From a virus: a stretch of DNA of 41,883 nt. A program made the translations under genes and the position numbers. The first letter of the stretch is position 1; each line of letters opens with the position of its first letter. Location: IMG/VR virus record IMGVR_UViG_3300036715_002244, positions 1 through 41,883 of that record; one strand, given 5' to 3'. Of this stretch, positions 6,636 through 31,213 are shown piece after piece. Below the pieces are notes generated by a model that was not told where the DNA came from, did not search any database, and was given only the letters and a program-made list of their open reading frames with translations.

Positions 6636-7492
6636 TTATTGTCTCCTTCAAATATATCATCTTCAGTAATGCTGTCTATTTGGTCTGTCAATTGCTTCAA
6701 AAATTCATAACAACCAATAGCGTGGAATGATTTCATTATCTCTTTAATCATTCCATCCGTCGGAAGGTCTGTATCTATATTTATTTTGTGATCTTTGATG
6801 TAATTAACTAACAAAGAATGGAATGAGCCAGCGTCCATCATATTCTGAATGCCGTTCCAATCACAATACTTTTCAGTTAGCGAACGAATAGCACTCATAG
6901 CTTCTTTTTTATTGAGCTGTGATATCTGCTTTTTAAGCACTTCTTTCTCAAATTTTTCTGCAGTCATTCCTGTTTTCTTCAGCAAAGTAAATATAAAACT
7001 TCTTTGCTTATCAGACATTAACTCACTGCCTGTTTGTGGTTGCGGTTGTGATGTTGGTTGTGGATTCGGTTTATAAGTGCTTGGTTGTTTTTGTGGTAGC
7101 GGCTCTGTGTTAGCGTCGCTATCTTCGTCAGTCGTGATTCCTAAGAGTGCAGAAATCGCATACCTTTTTGCGTATGTAATTGCTGCTCCACACTCTTGAG
7201 TATAGTTGATTTTTTCATCCTTACCTTGAATCGGCAAGTATGTTTCTACATCGCCTAAAACTGAATCACCAGATTTGCAATCAATAATAGAAGTGACAAC
7301 CCTAATCATCTTAGGGTTGTCTAATAAAGCAGTTGCCTTCTGAACAAGCACAAATTCATACTTGTTCAATATCTCAATTACCTCTGGTAAAAATCCTTCC
7401 AATGGCGCATACTTATATTTGTATGCTGCCTTAGTTCTTTTTACCTCTATTTTATTTATTTCTTGTTGTGCCTGTAAAAATCTATTAAACAT
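6632..7492 (-). CDS. erf: ERF-family single-strand annealing protein
   Basis: 286 residues. The ERF signature is clear: YKYAPLEGFLPEVIEIL near residue 26 and a QECGAAITYAKRYAISALLG block followed by DEDSDAN near residue 115. A Pro/Gln-rich linker (about 130-155) leads to a separate C-terminal domain, as in P22 Erf and related proteins. ERF proteins coat single strands and anneal homologous DNA, and usually work with an exonuclease; the Cas4-like nuclease across the divergent promoter is the obvious partner. Confidence 0.9.
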   Translation of the reverse strand: MFNRFLQAQQEINKIEVKRTKAAYKYKYAPLEGFLPEVIEILNKYEFVLVQKATALLDNPKMIRVVTSIIDCKSGDSVLGDVETYLPIQGKDEKINYTQECGAAITYAKRYAISALLGITTDEDSDANTEPLPQKQPSTYKPNPQPTSQPQPQTGSELMSDKQRSFIFTLLKKTGMTAEKFEKEVLKKQISQLNKKEAMSAIRSLTEKYCDWNGIQNMMDAGSFHSLLVNYIKDHKINIDTDLPTDGMIKEIMKSFHAIGCYEFLKQLTDQIDSITEDDIFEGDNK

Positions 7493-7682
7493 TATTATTC
7501 TCCTCCTTTTCTTCTTTTTGTGCTAAAGCTCTTTCAAACCAAAAGTCCTTAGATTTTGTCACCTCTTCCAGATTTGCTCTTAGGTTTTTGTTCTCTAACA
7601 ACACCTCTAAAAGCAGTTCCTTTAACTCTTCTTTTGTGTAGTCTTTCATTTTTGTTACCTCCTTTTGTTTGATATATAACAA
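7485..7682 (-). CDS. Small coiled-coil protein, first gene of leftward recombination operon
   Basis: 65 residues, Lys/Glu-rich and predicted to be one long helix (EELKELLLEVLLENKNLRANLEEV). It overlaps the ERF gene by eight bases. The frame opens at 7682, but the internal ATG at residue 12 (7649) follows AAAGGAGGTAACAAAA and is the more likely start, giving 54 residues. Function unknown. Confidence 0.6.
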   Translation of the reverse strand: MLYIKQKEVTKMKDYTKEELKELLLEVLLENKNLRANLEEVTKSKDFWFERALAQKEEKEENNNV

Positions 7683-7774: not shown

Positions 7775-7805
7775 ATCTATATCACAAACAAAAGGAGGAT
7801 CCAAA

Positions 7806-8756
7806 ATGTCAAATCTAAGAGTATCAAGTGTCGGGGGGAGCTGTTTGAAGAAGATCCAGTTAGAGTATAAGGGTGCAGAGCCCACATATTCTGACTACAT
7901 TCTCAAAGCTTTTGAGGATGGCAATATGCACGAACCATCTGTTATTAGGTGGTTTGAGCAAAAATACAACACTACGGTTGGCTTTAAAGGAGAGAACCAG
8001 CTGACACTTCGTATCAACGACTATCTAACAGGCCATCCAGATGGGTATATCCCGAACCTTCCAGACGATAAGAATTCATATTTGCTTGAATGCAAGGCTC
8101 TGAGACAACGAGCTATTTTTGAATTACGAGCACAAGGCTTGCAAAAATCACATCCACATTACTATACACAAGTGCAGATTTATATGTATGGAATGCTAAA
8201 AGAAGGATATCCATTAATTGGTTGTTACTTCGTCGCCAGGAACAAAGAGAAGTTTGTTAACGGCGAGTATGACACATATGTAGAGATTGTGCCATACAAT
8301 GAAGAATTCGTAGAAGCCACTTTACAAGAAGTTGAACAAAAATATGCCGTAGCTATTGGCGAAGATATAGAACCGCCAATGCATCCAAACGACAATTGGG
8401 AATGTAGATATTGCGGTTATTTGCATATCTGTCACCCGCTTTGGTCACCACCTAAAAAAGAATCTACCATAAAAGACTTAGACTTGGAATCAAAGATAGT
8501 CAGGTTAAAAGAGATACAAATACAAAGGCAGCTTTTAGAGGCTGAAGAAAAAGAATTAAAGGAAGCAGTATTAAGTGCCACATCGGTTGGCACAACGAAT
8601 ATATCAAATTATATAGTAAAGGTAACTGAAGTAAGGTCTGAACGATTGGACACAAAGGCTATCAAATCGTTTATACCGCCAGATAAATTTAGTCAGTTTG
8701 TTAAACAAAGCACATATAAAAGATTGACTATATCAGAAGTAGAGGAGGAGCTATAA
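7806..8756 (+). CDS. Cas4-like PD-(D/E)XK exonuclease with probable Fe-S cluster
   Basis: 316 residues. The nuclease core shows GHPDG (Asp79) and LLECKAL (Glu95, Lys97), followed by a QVQIYMYGM helix typical of RecB/Cas4 nucleases. Cys13 near the N-terminus plus Cys200, Cys203 and Cys209 (ECRYCGYLHICH) match the four-cysteine iron-sulphur arrangement of Cas4/AddB. The C-terminal third (about 225-316) is helical with a coiled coil. It probably resects DNA for the ERF annealing protein. The start has AAAGGAGGAT seven bases upstream. It is not near any cas genes. Confidence 0.85.
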   Translation: MSNLRVSSVGGSCLKKIQLEYKGAEPTYSDYILKAFEDGNMHEPSVIRWFEQKYNTTVGFKGENQLTLRINDYLTGHPDGYIPNLPDDKNSYLLECKALRQRAIFELRAQGLQKSHPHYYTQVQIYMYGMLKEGYPLIGCYFVARNKEKFVNGEYDTYVEIVPYNEEFVEATLQEVEQKYAVAIGEDIEPPMHPNDNWECRYCGYLHICHPLWSPPKKESTIKDLDLESKIVRLKEIQIQRQLLEAEEKELKEAVLSATSVGTTNISNYIVKVTEVRSERLDTKAIKSFIPPDKFSQFVKQSTYKRLTISEVEEEL

Positions 8757-28498: not shown

Positions 28499-28903
28499 TT
28501 ATTGCATCGCCTCCTGTAGATTTCTTTGTGGTTGTTGTGGTGCTCCTTGTGGTGCGCCTTGTGGTGCTCCTTGTGGTGCGCCTTGTGGTGCTCCTTGTTG
28601 CATTCCTGGTCGACCGCCACCAGAACCAGAACTTAAGATTTGATTTTTTAATTGTCCGACAACTCTCGGATCTACTACTGGTGCCAAATCTTTTGCAGCC
28701 TTAACAAAGGCATCGTGTATTGGTGAATTTACAGACATATTTGGAGATTTAGCGGCTAACTCCAAACCAATTTCTAACAATGCGTCTGCATAAGACCCCA
28801 AAGTAGTAAGTGCCTGCTCCTCTTCTTGTGGATTACCTTGTGGTGGTTGAGCACCTGCCATCTGTGCCCTTTGATTTGATGCTCCTGCCATTGGTATTGG
28901 CAT
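28499..28903 (-). CDS. Helical virion protein with GAPQ repeats
   Basis: 134 residues. N-terminal Pro/Gln-rich segment, a helical core (about 32-90), then five GAPQ tetrapeptides and a Gln-rich tail. Located between the tiny basic genes and the fibre. Unknown function, possibly a tail or head-associated factor. Confidence 0.65.
   Translation of the reverse strand: MPIPMAGASNQRAQMAGAQPPQGNPQEEEQALTTLGSYADALLEIGLELAAKSPNMSVNSPIHDAFVKAAKDLAPVVDPRVVGQLKNQILSSGSGGGRPGMQQGAPQGAPQGAPQGAPQGAPQQPQRNLQEAMQ
28535..28594. repeat. Five 12-bp tandem units coding GAPQ
   Basis: Units TTGTGGTGCTCC and TTGTGGTGCGCC alternate strictly, so the true period is 24 bp. This suggests duplication of a two-unit block. 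It is in frame, so unit number can change without breaking the gene. Confidence 0.9.
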
Positions 28904-28938
28904 TTAATCACTTCCTTTTTAAAATATTTTAAAAACTA

Positions 28939-29127
28939 AATAGACGGAGTAAAGGAGGGCTAAACATATGAGTTACTTGTGTCTCCTACTTACAGCTCTC
29001 TTTTTGGCTCTAATTGCCTTTTTTGTTGCTTTTCTTTGCTTTGCCATATGTTTAGCACCTCCTTTCGTATATAAATTTCGTTTGTCCACTAAGAATTCTT
29101 AGCCACGCCCCTTTTACTCCGTCTATT
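28939..29127. repeat. Long split inverted repeat around the tiny basic gene
   Basis: The left arm (28939-28970) is continuous. Its complement is split: 29045-29062 (CATATGTTTAGC plus CCTCC) and 29113-29127 (TTTACTCCGTCTATT), separated by about 50 bases that include the perfect palindrome CTAAGAATTCTTAG. In minus-strand RNA the 3' arm would pair with the ribosome binding site and ATG of the 24-residue gene and with codons of the gene before it. Confidence 0.85.
28973..29047 (-). CDS. 24-residue polycationic peptide
   Basis: The peptide starts MAKQRKATKKAIRAKK and ends SRRHK; half of its residues are Lys or Arg and none acidic. GGAGGTGC eight bases before the ATG is a good site. It lies between the portal and the GAPQ protein, with its start inside the inverted repeat. 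Very basic peptides can coat nucleic acid or act in capsid DNA condensation; function is unknown. Confidence 0.6.
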   Translation of the reverse strand: MAKQRKATKKAIRAKKRAVSRRHK

Positions 29128-29160
29128 AGGTTTTTGTCTTCTCAAAGTTTGTGTTCTCAA
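29089..29160 (-). CDS. 23-residue arginine-rich peptide (TTG start)
   Basis: A frame from TTG, preceded by AAAGG seven bases upstream, directly after the portal stop. It is rich in Arg/Lys (about 9 of 23) with a core RRQKPNRRSKRG. Start choice is uncertain. Together with the next gene it makes a pair of tiny basic peptides. Confidence 0.4.
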   Translation of the reverse strand: MRTQTLRRQKPNRRSKRGVAKNS

Positions 29161-29176
29161 TGAAAAACCTTTACTT

Positions 29177-30781
29177 CTACTTCTTTTGCTTGCCACCGTG
29201 AGCACCTCCTTTGAATTGAGCTTCAGCTTGTTCAATGACAAGCTCAGGATGTTCTTGGAATAACTTAGCCTGTGCCGCTTCTTTTTCTTTTAATTCTTTT
29301 ATAATGTCATTCTGTCGAGGTATTGGTAGAAGTTTGACTAACAAGTCAGGTGATATAATGCCTGCTTGTGCCAATTGGAATATCATACCTGTATATTGGA
29401 ATTGAGTAATCGGCGACGTTGAGTGCGAATCTACTTTTATTCTGTAATTGTCCAAATCGCCATATTTATCAGCGTGTATTATCTGATAAGATTGAGCGTA
29501 TAACATCATTATTTCTTCTATTGCACTCTCTACTCTCAAAGCCTTCTTTTTAAGAGGAGCTGAAGCAAAGGACGCAAGCAAGCCTTGCTGACCAGCACTT
29601 CTTACATTCGATGAGGCTCTACCTGCTAATGTCTCATTCAAACCTGATATCTTCTCGAATGCTTGCTCATAAAAGCGCTTAACCTCATAAGCAACCTTTG
29701 GATCAAGCTTTGGAAGATATGGTTCCATTTTTATGTCTTCGCCTGGAAAATCAATAACAGCTCCTGGTTCTGTTAGCTTGTCTTTGTTCTCACTTGATAC
29801 CTCACTTGACATAATGCCTGAGAATATTATTGGAGGCTTTGCCAAAAGCTCCATTACCTTGTCGCCTCTCTCTTGGTTCTTGTTTACCATATCCTGAAGA
29901 TGAACAAGATAATAAAGCTCACTCATACCCCAAAAACTCTTAGGTTGAGGATTTAAACATATATTAACAAATGGTAAACGCCCTTCAACACAAGGATTTA
30001 GCCCCTTGTTGACAATTGTATCGTTGATTATTGTATATACATAATAGTCTGATATAGTTTTGCTTTCGTCAGTAGAAGATTTATCTGGAATATCCTCTTC
30101 CCATACCCACAATTCGTATATCCTTACAAGCTTTGCAGTGCCGTGCTGGTTCATAATAGAACGAGCGTCATTGCCATAAGGCGCTGCATAAAAATATCCC
30201 TTCGAACTGCCATATGCAGTGAGAGGCTCTTCTAAAAGGTCATCTAATAAACCAACCGATTTTTCAGACACTAAAGCGCTATTAATCAATTCTTCTGGAT
30301 ATTGTCTTCTTAAAATATCATAAGGAATGTATTTGATATGGCATACTGCTTGTGAAGTATCATCCATCTTAGGAATTGTTGTATATCTAACGCCTATCTC
30401 ATATGGGAATACTGTCTCAATCTCAACATTCTTGCCAGTAGGATAGATTTTAAGGAATTGGTTGCCAAAAGTTAACGCATTTTGGACTTCATCATAAAGA
30501 AGTAGGTTAATATTATCTGAATAAAATCTATCCTGAATAACATCTCTGAATTGTTGTTCAACGGGCGATAATACTTCATATTTGTGATTTTTAAAATAAT
30601 CAAGCACAACATTCTCAGATAAATAGATAAGTGATACAACTTCATCTAAATGAGCTTTTAAAAGGTTTTCGCAAGTGTCATCTTCATATGCAGACAAAAA
30701 GTGGTTATACATTTTCTTGCGGTTATCTAAATTTTCTAGACATTCATCTTTTATGTCTATTATTTCTTTATCTGTTCGCAT
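29177..30781 (-). CDS. Portal protein
   Basis: 534 residues, standard for podovirus portals. A helical N-terminal region, wing-like alpha/beta domain and a C-terminal block with NETLAGRASSNVRSAGQQG and long helices are typical of T7/P22-type portals. It forms the dodecameric DNA gate to which terminase docks. Unusually, the terminase gene is far away in another operon. Confidence 0.85.
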   Translation of the reverse strand: MRTDKEIIDIKDECLENLDNRKKMYNHFLSAYEDDTCENLLKAHLDEVVSLIYLSENVVLDYFKNHKYEVLSPVEQQFRDVIQDRFYSDNINLLLYDEVQNALTFGNQFLKIYPTGKNVEIETVFPYEIGVRYTTIPKMDDTSQAVCHIKYIPYDILRRQYPEELINSALVSEKSVGLLDDLLEEPLTAYGSSKGYFYAAPYGNDARSIMNQHGTAKLVRIYELWVWEEDIPDKSSTDESKTISDYYVYTIINDTIVNKGLNPCVEGRLPFVNICLNPQPKSFWGMSELYYLVHLQDMVNKNQERGDKVMELLAKPPIIFSGIMSSEVSSENKDKLTEPGAVIDFPGEDIKMEPYLPKLDPKVAYEVKRFYEQAFEKISGLNETLAGRASSNVRSAGQQGLLASFASAPLKKKALRVESAIEEIMMLYAQSYQIIHADKYGDLDNYRIKVDSHSTSPITQFQYTGMIFQLAQAGIISPDLLVKLLPIPRQNDIIKELKEKEAAQAKLFQEHPELVIEQAEAQFKGGAHGGKQKK

Positions 30782-31184: not shown

Positions 31185-31213
31185 ATATTAAAATATTTTT
31201 ATATATTTGTCAA
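31185..31213 (-). promoter_or_regulatory. Late promoter
   Basis: On the minus strand TTGACA (31213-31208), 17 bases, TAATAT (31190-31185), about 37 bases before the first late ATG and just after the terminator of the preceding operon. It would drive about 20 kb of structural and lysis genes. A consensus sigma-A promoter for late genes implies control by repression or antitermination. Confidence 0.7.

Follow-up and report, generated by a model that had tools for sequence, protein, structure and literature searches.

Behind the portal gene of an uncultured phage, a gene of 24 codons for a polycationic peptide (micro-ORF2) is enclosed in the transcript by a long-range fold-back stem, the 5' arm of which is made up of the final codons of another very small gene (micro-ORF1). 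The stem lies on the minus strand of the window, by which we mean the whole stretch of viral DNA analysed here (41,883 nucleotides; IMG/VR record IMGVR_UViG_3300036715_002244). Computation supports the existence of the stem, the constancy of its anatomy across five records from four lineages and the coding constraint on micro-ORF2 in the relatives of the window. The control step itself we infer: it is possible, and we tentatively propose, that this conserved, translation-sensitive stem controls micro-ORF2 post-transcriptionally and thereby limits and times the dose of its peptide. The locus is laid out as follows.

29177-30781, minus strand: portal gene (534 aa), assigned by PHROG profiles phrog_1216 (3e-8) and phrog_156 and by alignment with the portals of MW202753 and MW202825.
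29089-29196, minus strand: micro-ORF1, a 35-aa basic peptide MASKRSRSKGFSLRTQTLRRQKPNRRSKRGVAKNS with a GTG start and the Shine-Dalgarno (SD) sequence AAAGGAGG, read from the sequence and from basic counterpart ORFs in relatives G002, G021, G022 and G023.
29108-29135, minus strand: outer 5' arm, the final codons of micro-ORF1, with the unbroken core at 29113-29127, defined by complementarity.
28973-29047, minus strand: micro-ORF2, a 24-aa polycationic peptide MAKQRKATKKAIRAKKRAVSRRHK with the SD sequence AAAGGAGG, read from the sequence and from counterparts at portal loci.
29045-29062, minus strand: inner 5' arm GGAGG-U-GCUAAACAUAUG, which is the SD sequence and start codon of micro-ORF2.
28931-28970, minus strand: continuous 3' arm, the partner of both 5' segments, followed by UUUAGUUUUU.
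28499-28903, minus strand: 134-aa gene that comes next in the head cluster, with its SD sequence outside the stem.
31185-31213, minus strand: promoter-like TTGACA-17-TAATAT at the head of the portal transcription unit, from a pattern scan only.

The same pattern scan places a strong terminator-like hairpin (31260-31235) just ahead of this promoter-like site. A search of PHROGs and Pfam with the 24-aa and 35-aa peptides gave no match, and the 134-aa gene has no homology detectable by BLASTP to the gene of about 160 aa at the same place in the freshwater clade described below.

The inverted repeat that had been predicted in the window is real and its sequence is as described, with the ends at 28939 and 29127 being the exact limits of an unbroken 15 bp core (AATAGACGGAGTAAA/TTTACTCCGTCTATT). 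The outer arms (28931-28958 and 29108-29135) are 28 nt long and 86% complementary. The inner arms GCTAAACATATG/CATATGTTTAGC (28959-28970 and 29045-29056) are complementary at 12 of 12 positions, and GGAGG at 29058-29062 pairs with CCTCC of the same 3' arm. The pairing of the 3' side with GGAGG, with the start region and with codons of the preceding basic peptide, as originally described, is present at 29045-29062 and 29108-29135, and so is the UUUAGUUUUU tail into which the 3' arm was said to run. The preceding basic peptide itself also exists, but is better worded as a separate 35-aa ORF, starting with GTG and sharing 20 nt with the end of the portal gene. The continuous 3' arm is composite in that it pairs with two 5' segments separated by about 45 nt.

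The window RNA folds with a predicted energy of -61.1 kcal/mol, compared with -38.1 +/- 4.0 kcal/mol in 200 dinucleotide shuffles (z = -5.7, 0 of 200 as good), and the duplex of its 5' and 3' regions has a z-score of -5.4 (0 of 100 shuffles as good). Of 1,482 random placements along the window strand with the geometry kept, none gave a contiguous helix of this strength. Rfam 15 covariance models gave no match in the window, nor in seven relatives up to an E of 0.5.

The stem recurs in four relatives (G002, G021, G022 and G023), whose portals are 33-35% identical to that of the window. All four were picked by portal or terminase similarity and none by the repeat; G021, G022 and G023 were found with a DNA pattern for a portal motif that is specific to the window and G002. 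G021 and G022 are near-duplicates (87% identical at the locus), so the relatives amount to three further lineages and the stem is known from four independent ones, all of them metagenomic records. An unbroken helix of 14-15 bp (14 bp in the relatives) is found in all five records, and in all five the 5' arm lies wholly within micro-ORF1, 4-21 nt ahead of its stop codon. The 3' arm begins 14-21 nt past the stop codon of micro-ORF2, and the loop is 85-159 nt long. In the relatives micro-ORF1 encodes 22-34 aa and micro-ORF2 encodes polycationic peptides of 14-17 aa. The end of the portal gene and micro-ORF1 overlap in four records (the window, G021, G022 and G023); in G002 they do not, and the SD sequence of micro-ORF1 is weak there.

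The duplex z-scores in the relatives are -5.2 (G002), -4.9 (G023), -2.9 (G022) and -2.7 (G021), with 0-1 of 100 shuffles as good across the five records, and 0 of 1,291-1,482 random placements per genome gave a helix as strong. The arm sequences are unrelated among the lineages. When arms were swapped, cognate pairs gave -43 to -54 kcal/mol and non-cognate pairs -16 to -39 kcal/mol, and interchange worked only for the near-identical G021/G022 pair. Three differences within the 14 bp core of this pair are all compatible with pairing, which is weak evidence in itself. A shared anatomy built from unrelated arm sequences in four lineages argues, in our reading of the sequences, for selection on the pairing of the arms.

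The exposure of the micro-ORF2 SD sequence differs among the records. In the window its predicted unpaired probability is 0.10 with the 3' arm and 0.74 without it, in G002 it is 0.25, and in G021-G023 it is 0.76-0.85, with the SD sequence lying within the loop. Conserved SD masking was rejected, as burial is predicted in the window and G002 only. Of the on/off switch coupled to translation that the original prediction put forward, the coupling is partly supported by the location of the 5' arm within micro-ORF1 in every record, while the hiding of the start is predicted for those two only. In silico, the SD sequence of the window stays closed (0.01 unpaired) once the RNA 5' of the inner helix is removed, and translation of micro-ORF1 alone may fail to open the inner helix.

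Polycationic micro-genes behind the portal are not restricted to these records. An alignment of three portals retrieved over 500 encoding stretches from IMG/VR; 80 of them were kept, and the addition of terminase-derived records brought the set to 97 loci. Of these, 90 contain, no more than 600 nt past the portal, one or more polycationic ORFs of 9-40 aa that are preceded by an SD sequence; among control positions behind other long ORFs the count is 5 of 561, and on the reverse strand it is 0 of 97. These relatives were recovered only by portal and terminase alignments and the portal-motif DNA pattern: single-protein scans (portal, terminase and capsid protein in IMG/VR, terminase in a species-genome set) found no close relatives and a two-sequence alignment gave just the known record. 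The nearest GenBank portals, those of MW202753 and MW202825, are about 26% identical to the window portal, which belongs, distantly, to a large family. Past these two portals lie unannotated 13-aa ORFs, MRKAYKKTRKTRR and MARAKRKGRKARK in one and MYKKHKRSRKTRR and MARKARKTRKGRK in the other, and the micro-genes are missing from the annotation in both public genome records checked. The GenBank record of MW202753, the only one examined at the level of single genes, puts opposite-strand hypothetical proteins over the polycationic micro-ORFs (locus L005, 4740-5038), which is probably a misannotation. The longest tandem array seen has five or more successive tiny polycationic ORFs and lies about 50-460 nt past the portal stop codon of G006 (locus L192).

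In the freshwater clade, which makes up the bulk of the 80 loci, pN/pS is 0.30-0.46 in pairs that are not phylogenetically independent and third codon positions vary most; between G021 and G022 all five substitutions in micro-ORF2 are synonymous and none is non-synonymous. From such sequence comparisons, the polycationic micro-ORFs are very probably translated genes. As read from the translations, the micro-ORF2 products of the five stem-bearing records contain 50-71% Lys/Arg and have no hydrophobic stretch. No polycationic micro-ORFs were found in G001 (terminase 33% identical), or at the portal of phages related through the capsid-protein family only (cultured Mx9, BUCT555, ppBjS10J-1 and Mwe-JY13, as well as ctMlz233 and a TM7 phage). 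No cultured member of the group was found, all relatives being metagenomic records. Partial coverage of the literature turned up no description of such genes, and their novelty is not proven.

In the freshwater loci the enclosing stem is missing: z averages about -0.8 (32 loci) and the best helix has a median of about 9 bp, and on these values the stem was rejected as a feature of the whole family. Relatives with the gene and no complementary arm, which the original prediction would have counted against itself, thus occur outside the clade of the window only, whereas its own clade keeps the arms in all five records. Between the micro-ORF1 stop codon and the micro-ORF2 SD sequence, loci L005, L006 and L008-L087 share another conserved element, AGGG..TGGCTnnCTT..CCCT..AAGnnGGCC, with a short hairpin ahead of it. 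From its sequence this element can be read as pseudoknot-like, of the H type. For both of its helices the own partner beats swapped partners (0 of 5000 permutations each, with sequence relatedness not removed). A mini-peptide MAAFPLK in the freshwater spacer was rejected as a conserved product; judged by eye, it varies with the RNA pairing and not as a peptide. The recurrence of RNA structure next to micro-ORF2 in differing form fits regulation of these genes. A pseudoknot used in the translation of a small toxin provides a separate published example (PMC11228461).

Because the 5' arm consists of micro-ORF1 codons near the stop, translation of micro-ORF1 and the closed stem are mutually exclusive. 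In the post-transcriptional control that we tentatively propose, ribosomes on micro-ORF1 would keep the stem open, and once ribosome traffic ends the already transcribed 3' arm would fold back and close it. In the window and G002 closure would bury the SD sequence of micro-ORF2, leaving nascent RNA and RNA on which micro-ORF1 is translated as the main templates for the peptide; the exposure of the window SD sequence in the absence of the 3' arm makes initiation on nascent RNA plausible. In G021-G023, where the SD sequence is left in the loop, the closed stem would more likely act as a double-stranded processing element (RNase III type) or an insulating element. As SD burial is not conserved, the regulatory consequence may differ among lineages. 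The net effect would be to restrict how much of a nucleic-acid-binding peptide is made, and when, in relation to the portal and capsid genes. Judging from its composition and position, the peptide could bind or neutralize nucleic acid in head assembly.

It is also conceivable, if somewhat unlikely, that the stem is primarily a stalk for RNase III-type processing, in which case cutting would free a mini-mRNA and split the portal message (few copies) from the scaffold and capsid message (many copies). Stems of 14-23 bp enclose micro-ORF2 in all five records regardless of SD pairing, and the 3' arm stops short of the SD sequence of the next gene, which a cut would therefore spare. The layout is like that of precursor rRNA processing stalks; there, as in T7-type RNase III stems, long complementary flanks enclose a functional segment, whereas here the enclosed segment is a gene of 14-24 codons, the stems are shorter and cleavage is only putative. 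On the other hand, the 14 bp core of G002 would be a short substrate for RNase III if the inner helix does not stack on it, and cutting the 5' arm would destroy the micro-ORF1 message.

It is improbable that the stem acts as an intrinsic terminator or attenuator placed between the portal gene and the head genes that follow; the original prediction had considered a terminator as a means of tuning the two. The window 3' arm does run into UUUAGUUUUU, and in freshwater relatives hairpins followed by a TTGACA promoter-like box are seen by eye past micro-ORF2. A terminator needs a U-run in the relatives as well, and this is missing after the arm in G002, G021, G022 and G023, so that termination is not supported as the shared function. 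The loop of 85-159 nt also speaks against it, and in the window the scan neither calls a terminator at the site nor finds a convincing promoter for the downstream genes.

We consider it quite doubtful that the arms are a neutral by-product, whether of template switching during replication or as the functionless relic of a small inverted-repeat element. The 3' arm of the window does resemble an inverted copy of the 5' region in which about 50 nt are missing between shared AAAGG words, and the match is perfect across the SD core and the start codon. Drift would not keep the pairing, however, and the same anatomy is present in three further lineages with unrelated arms; the pairing-compatible core differences between G021 and G022 point weakly the same way. 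The relic that had been suggested would need recurring ends, and none were found: arms of different lineages do not cross-pair and no second copy of the arms was found within the record of the window.

Very improbably, the arm serves the plus strand, where GGAGGGCTAAACATATG starts a 44-aa hydrophobic ORF (28968-29102), which would be an antisense gene of toxin- or antitoxin-like type, and where a promoter-like site lies at 28897-28925: SD sequence (GGAGG), ATG, open frame and a 10/12 promoter-like match are all present, but the antisense of Lys/Arg-rich codons is automatically Phe/Leu-rich, making the ORF probably a by-product, promoter-like sites are barely above chance (15 versus 9.7), and in G002 no minus-strand promoter-like site is called near micro-ORF2.

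Among known systems, hok has an upstream overlapping ORF, mok. In type I toxin mRNAs (hok/mok; AapA/IsoA of Helicobacter pylori), a long-distance interaction between the 5' and 3' ends buries the SD sequence of a tiny ORF (PMC6733600). The arrangement described here is alike in that a tiny ORF is enclosed by long-range pairing; a 3' element is also predicted to bury the SD sequence, though for the window and G002 only. It differs in that the products are polycationic peptides of a head cluster and not hydrophobic membrane toxins, that the stem sits in the middle of a long head operon and that SD burial is not predicted in three of the five records; the antisense RNA would correspond here to a weak plus-strand promoter-like match in the window, with none called near micro-ORF2 in G002. 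The locus is not classed with type I toxin-antitoxin systems, since the peptide is not hydrophobic and an antisense RNA is at most putative. The maturation gene of MS2 is translated on nascent RNA before a distant complement folds onto its start region; MS2 is an RNA phage and its complement is located upstream of the gene, whereas the phage of the window is a DNA phage with the complement on the 3' side of the enclosed gene. The Microviridae J protein and the adenovirus mu peptide are very short, highly basic and encoded among capsid genes. The micro-peptides resemble these and protamine in composition and place only, being short, strongly basic and encoded among head genes; they differ from J and mu in belonging to tailed dsDNA phages, in their length of 10-24 aa and frequent occurrence as tandem pairs, and in being at most putative virion components.

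Extremely short polycationic genes, linked to the portal, are widespread in a large group of uncultured phages and are accompanied by RNA elements in which structure is conserved and sequence is not. A broader reading, which we offer as speculative and rather unlikely, is that paired protamine-like micro-genes of 10-35 codons behind the portal of these tailed dsDNA phages have their dose set by RNA structures on the same transcript, namely a micro-ORF1-sensing stem in the clade of the window and a covarying pseudoknot in the freshwater clade. The Lys/Arg-rich peptides may also act as repressors of their own translation by binding these RNA structures. Incorporation of the peptides into capsids or the packaging motor, if it occurs, would give tailed phages an analogue of protamine or J-type peptides, and if the stem senses micro-ORF1 translation, it would represent a compact dosing design for a nucleic-acid-binding peptide within a head operon.

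Some other features of the window concern its leader sequences and repeats. The leaders of micro-ORF1 and micro-ORF2 are both AAAGGAGGTGCT, spaced 147 nt apart. This SD leader word occurs at 29201, 29054 and 28907 in exact steps of 147 nt, the third copy (83% match) preceding the 134-aa gene, and the spacing suggests a tandem duplication. The 134-aa gene closes with a Gln/Gly/Ala/Pro repeat (28499-28620), which a 148-aa ORF, overlapping the gene by 122 nt, reads in another frame as a His/Lys-rich repeat (HHKEHHKA). At 7650-7678 and 7778-7806, near-identical leaders of two divergent genes, a minus-strand ORF ending at 7485 and a plus-strand 316-aa gene, form a 29-nt inverted repeat that includes their SD sequences. 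From these sequences, leaders seem to have been copied within the genome of the window.
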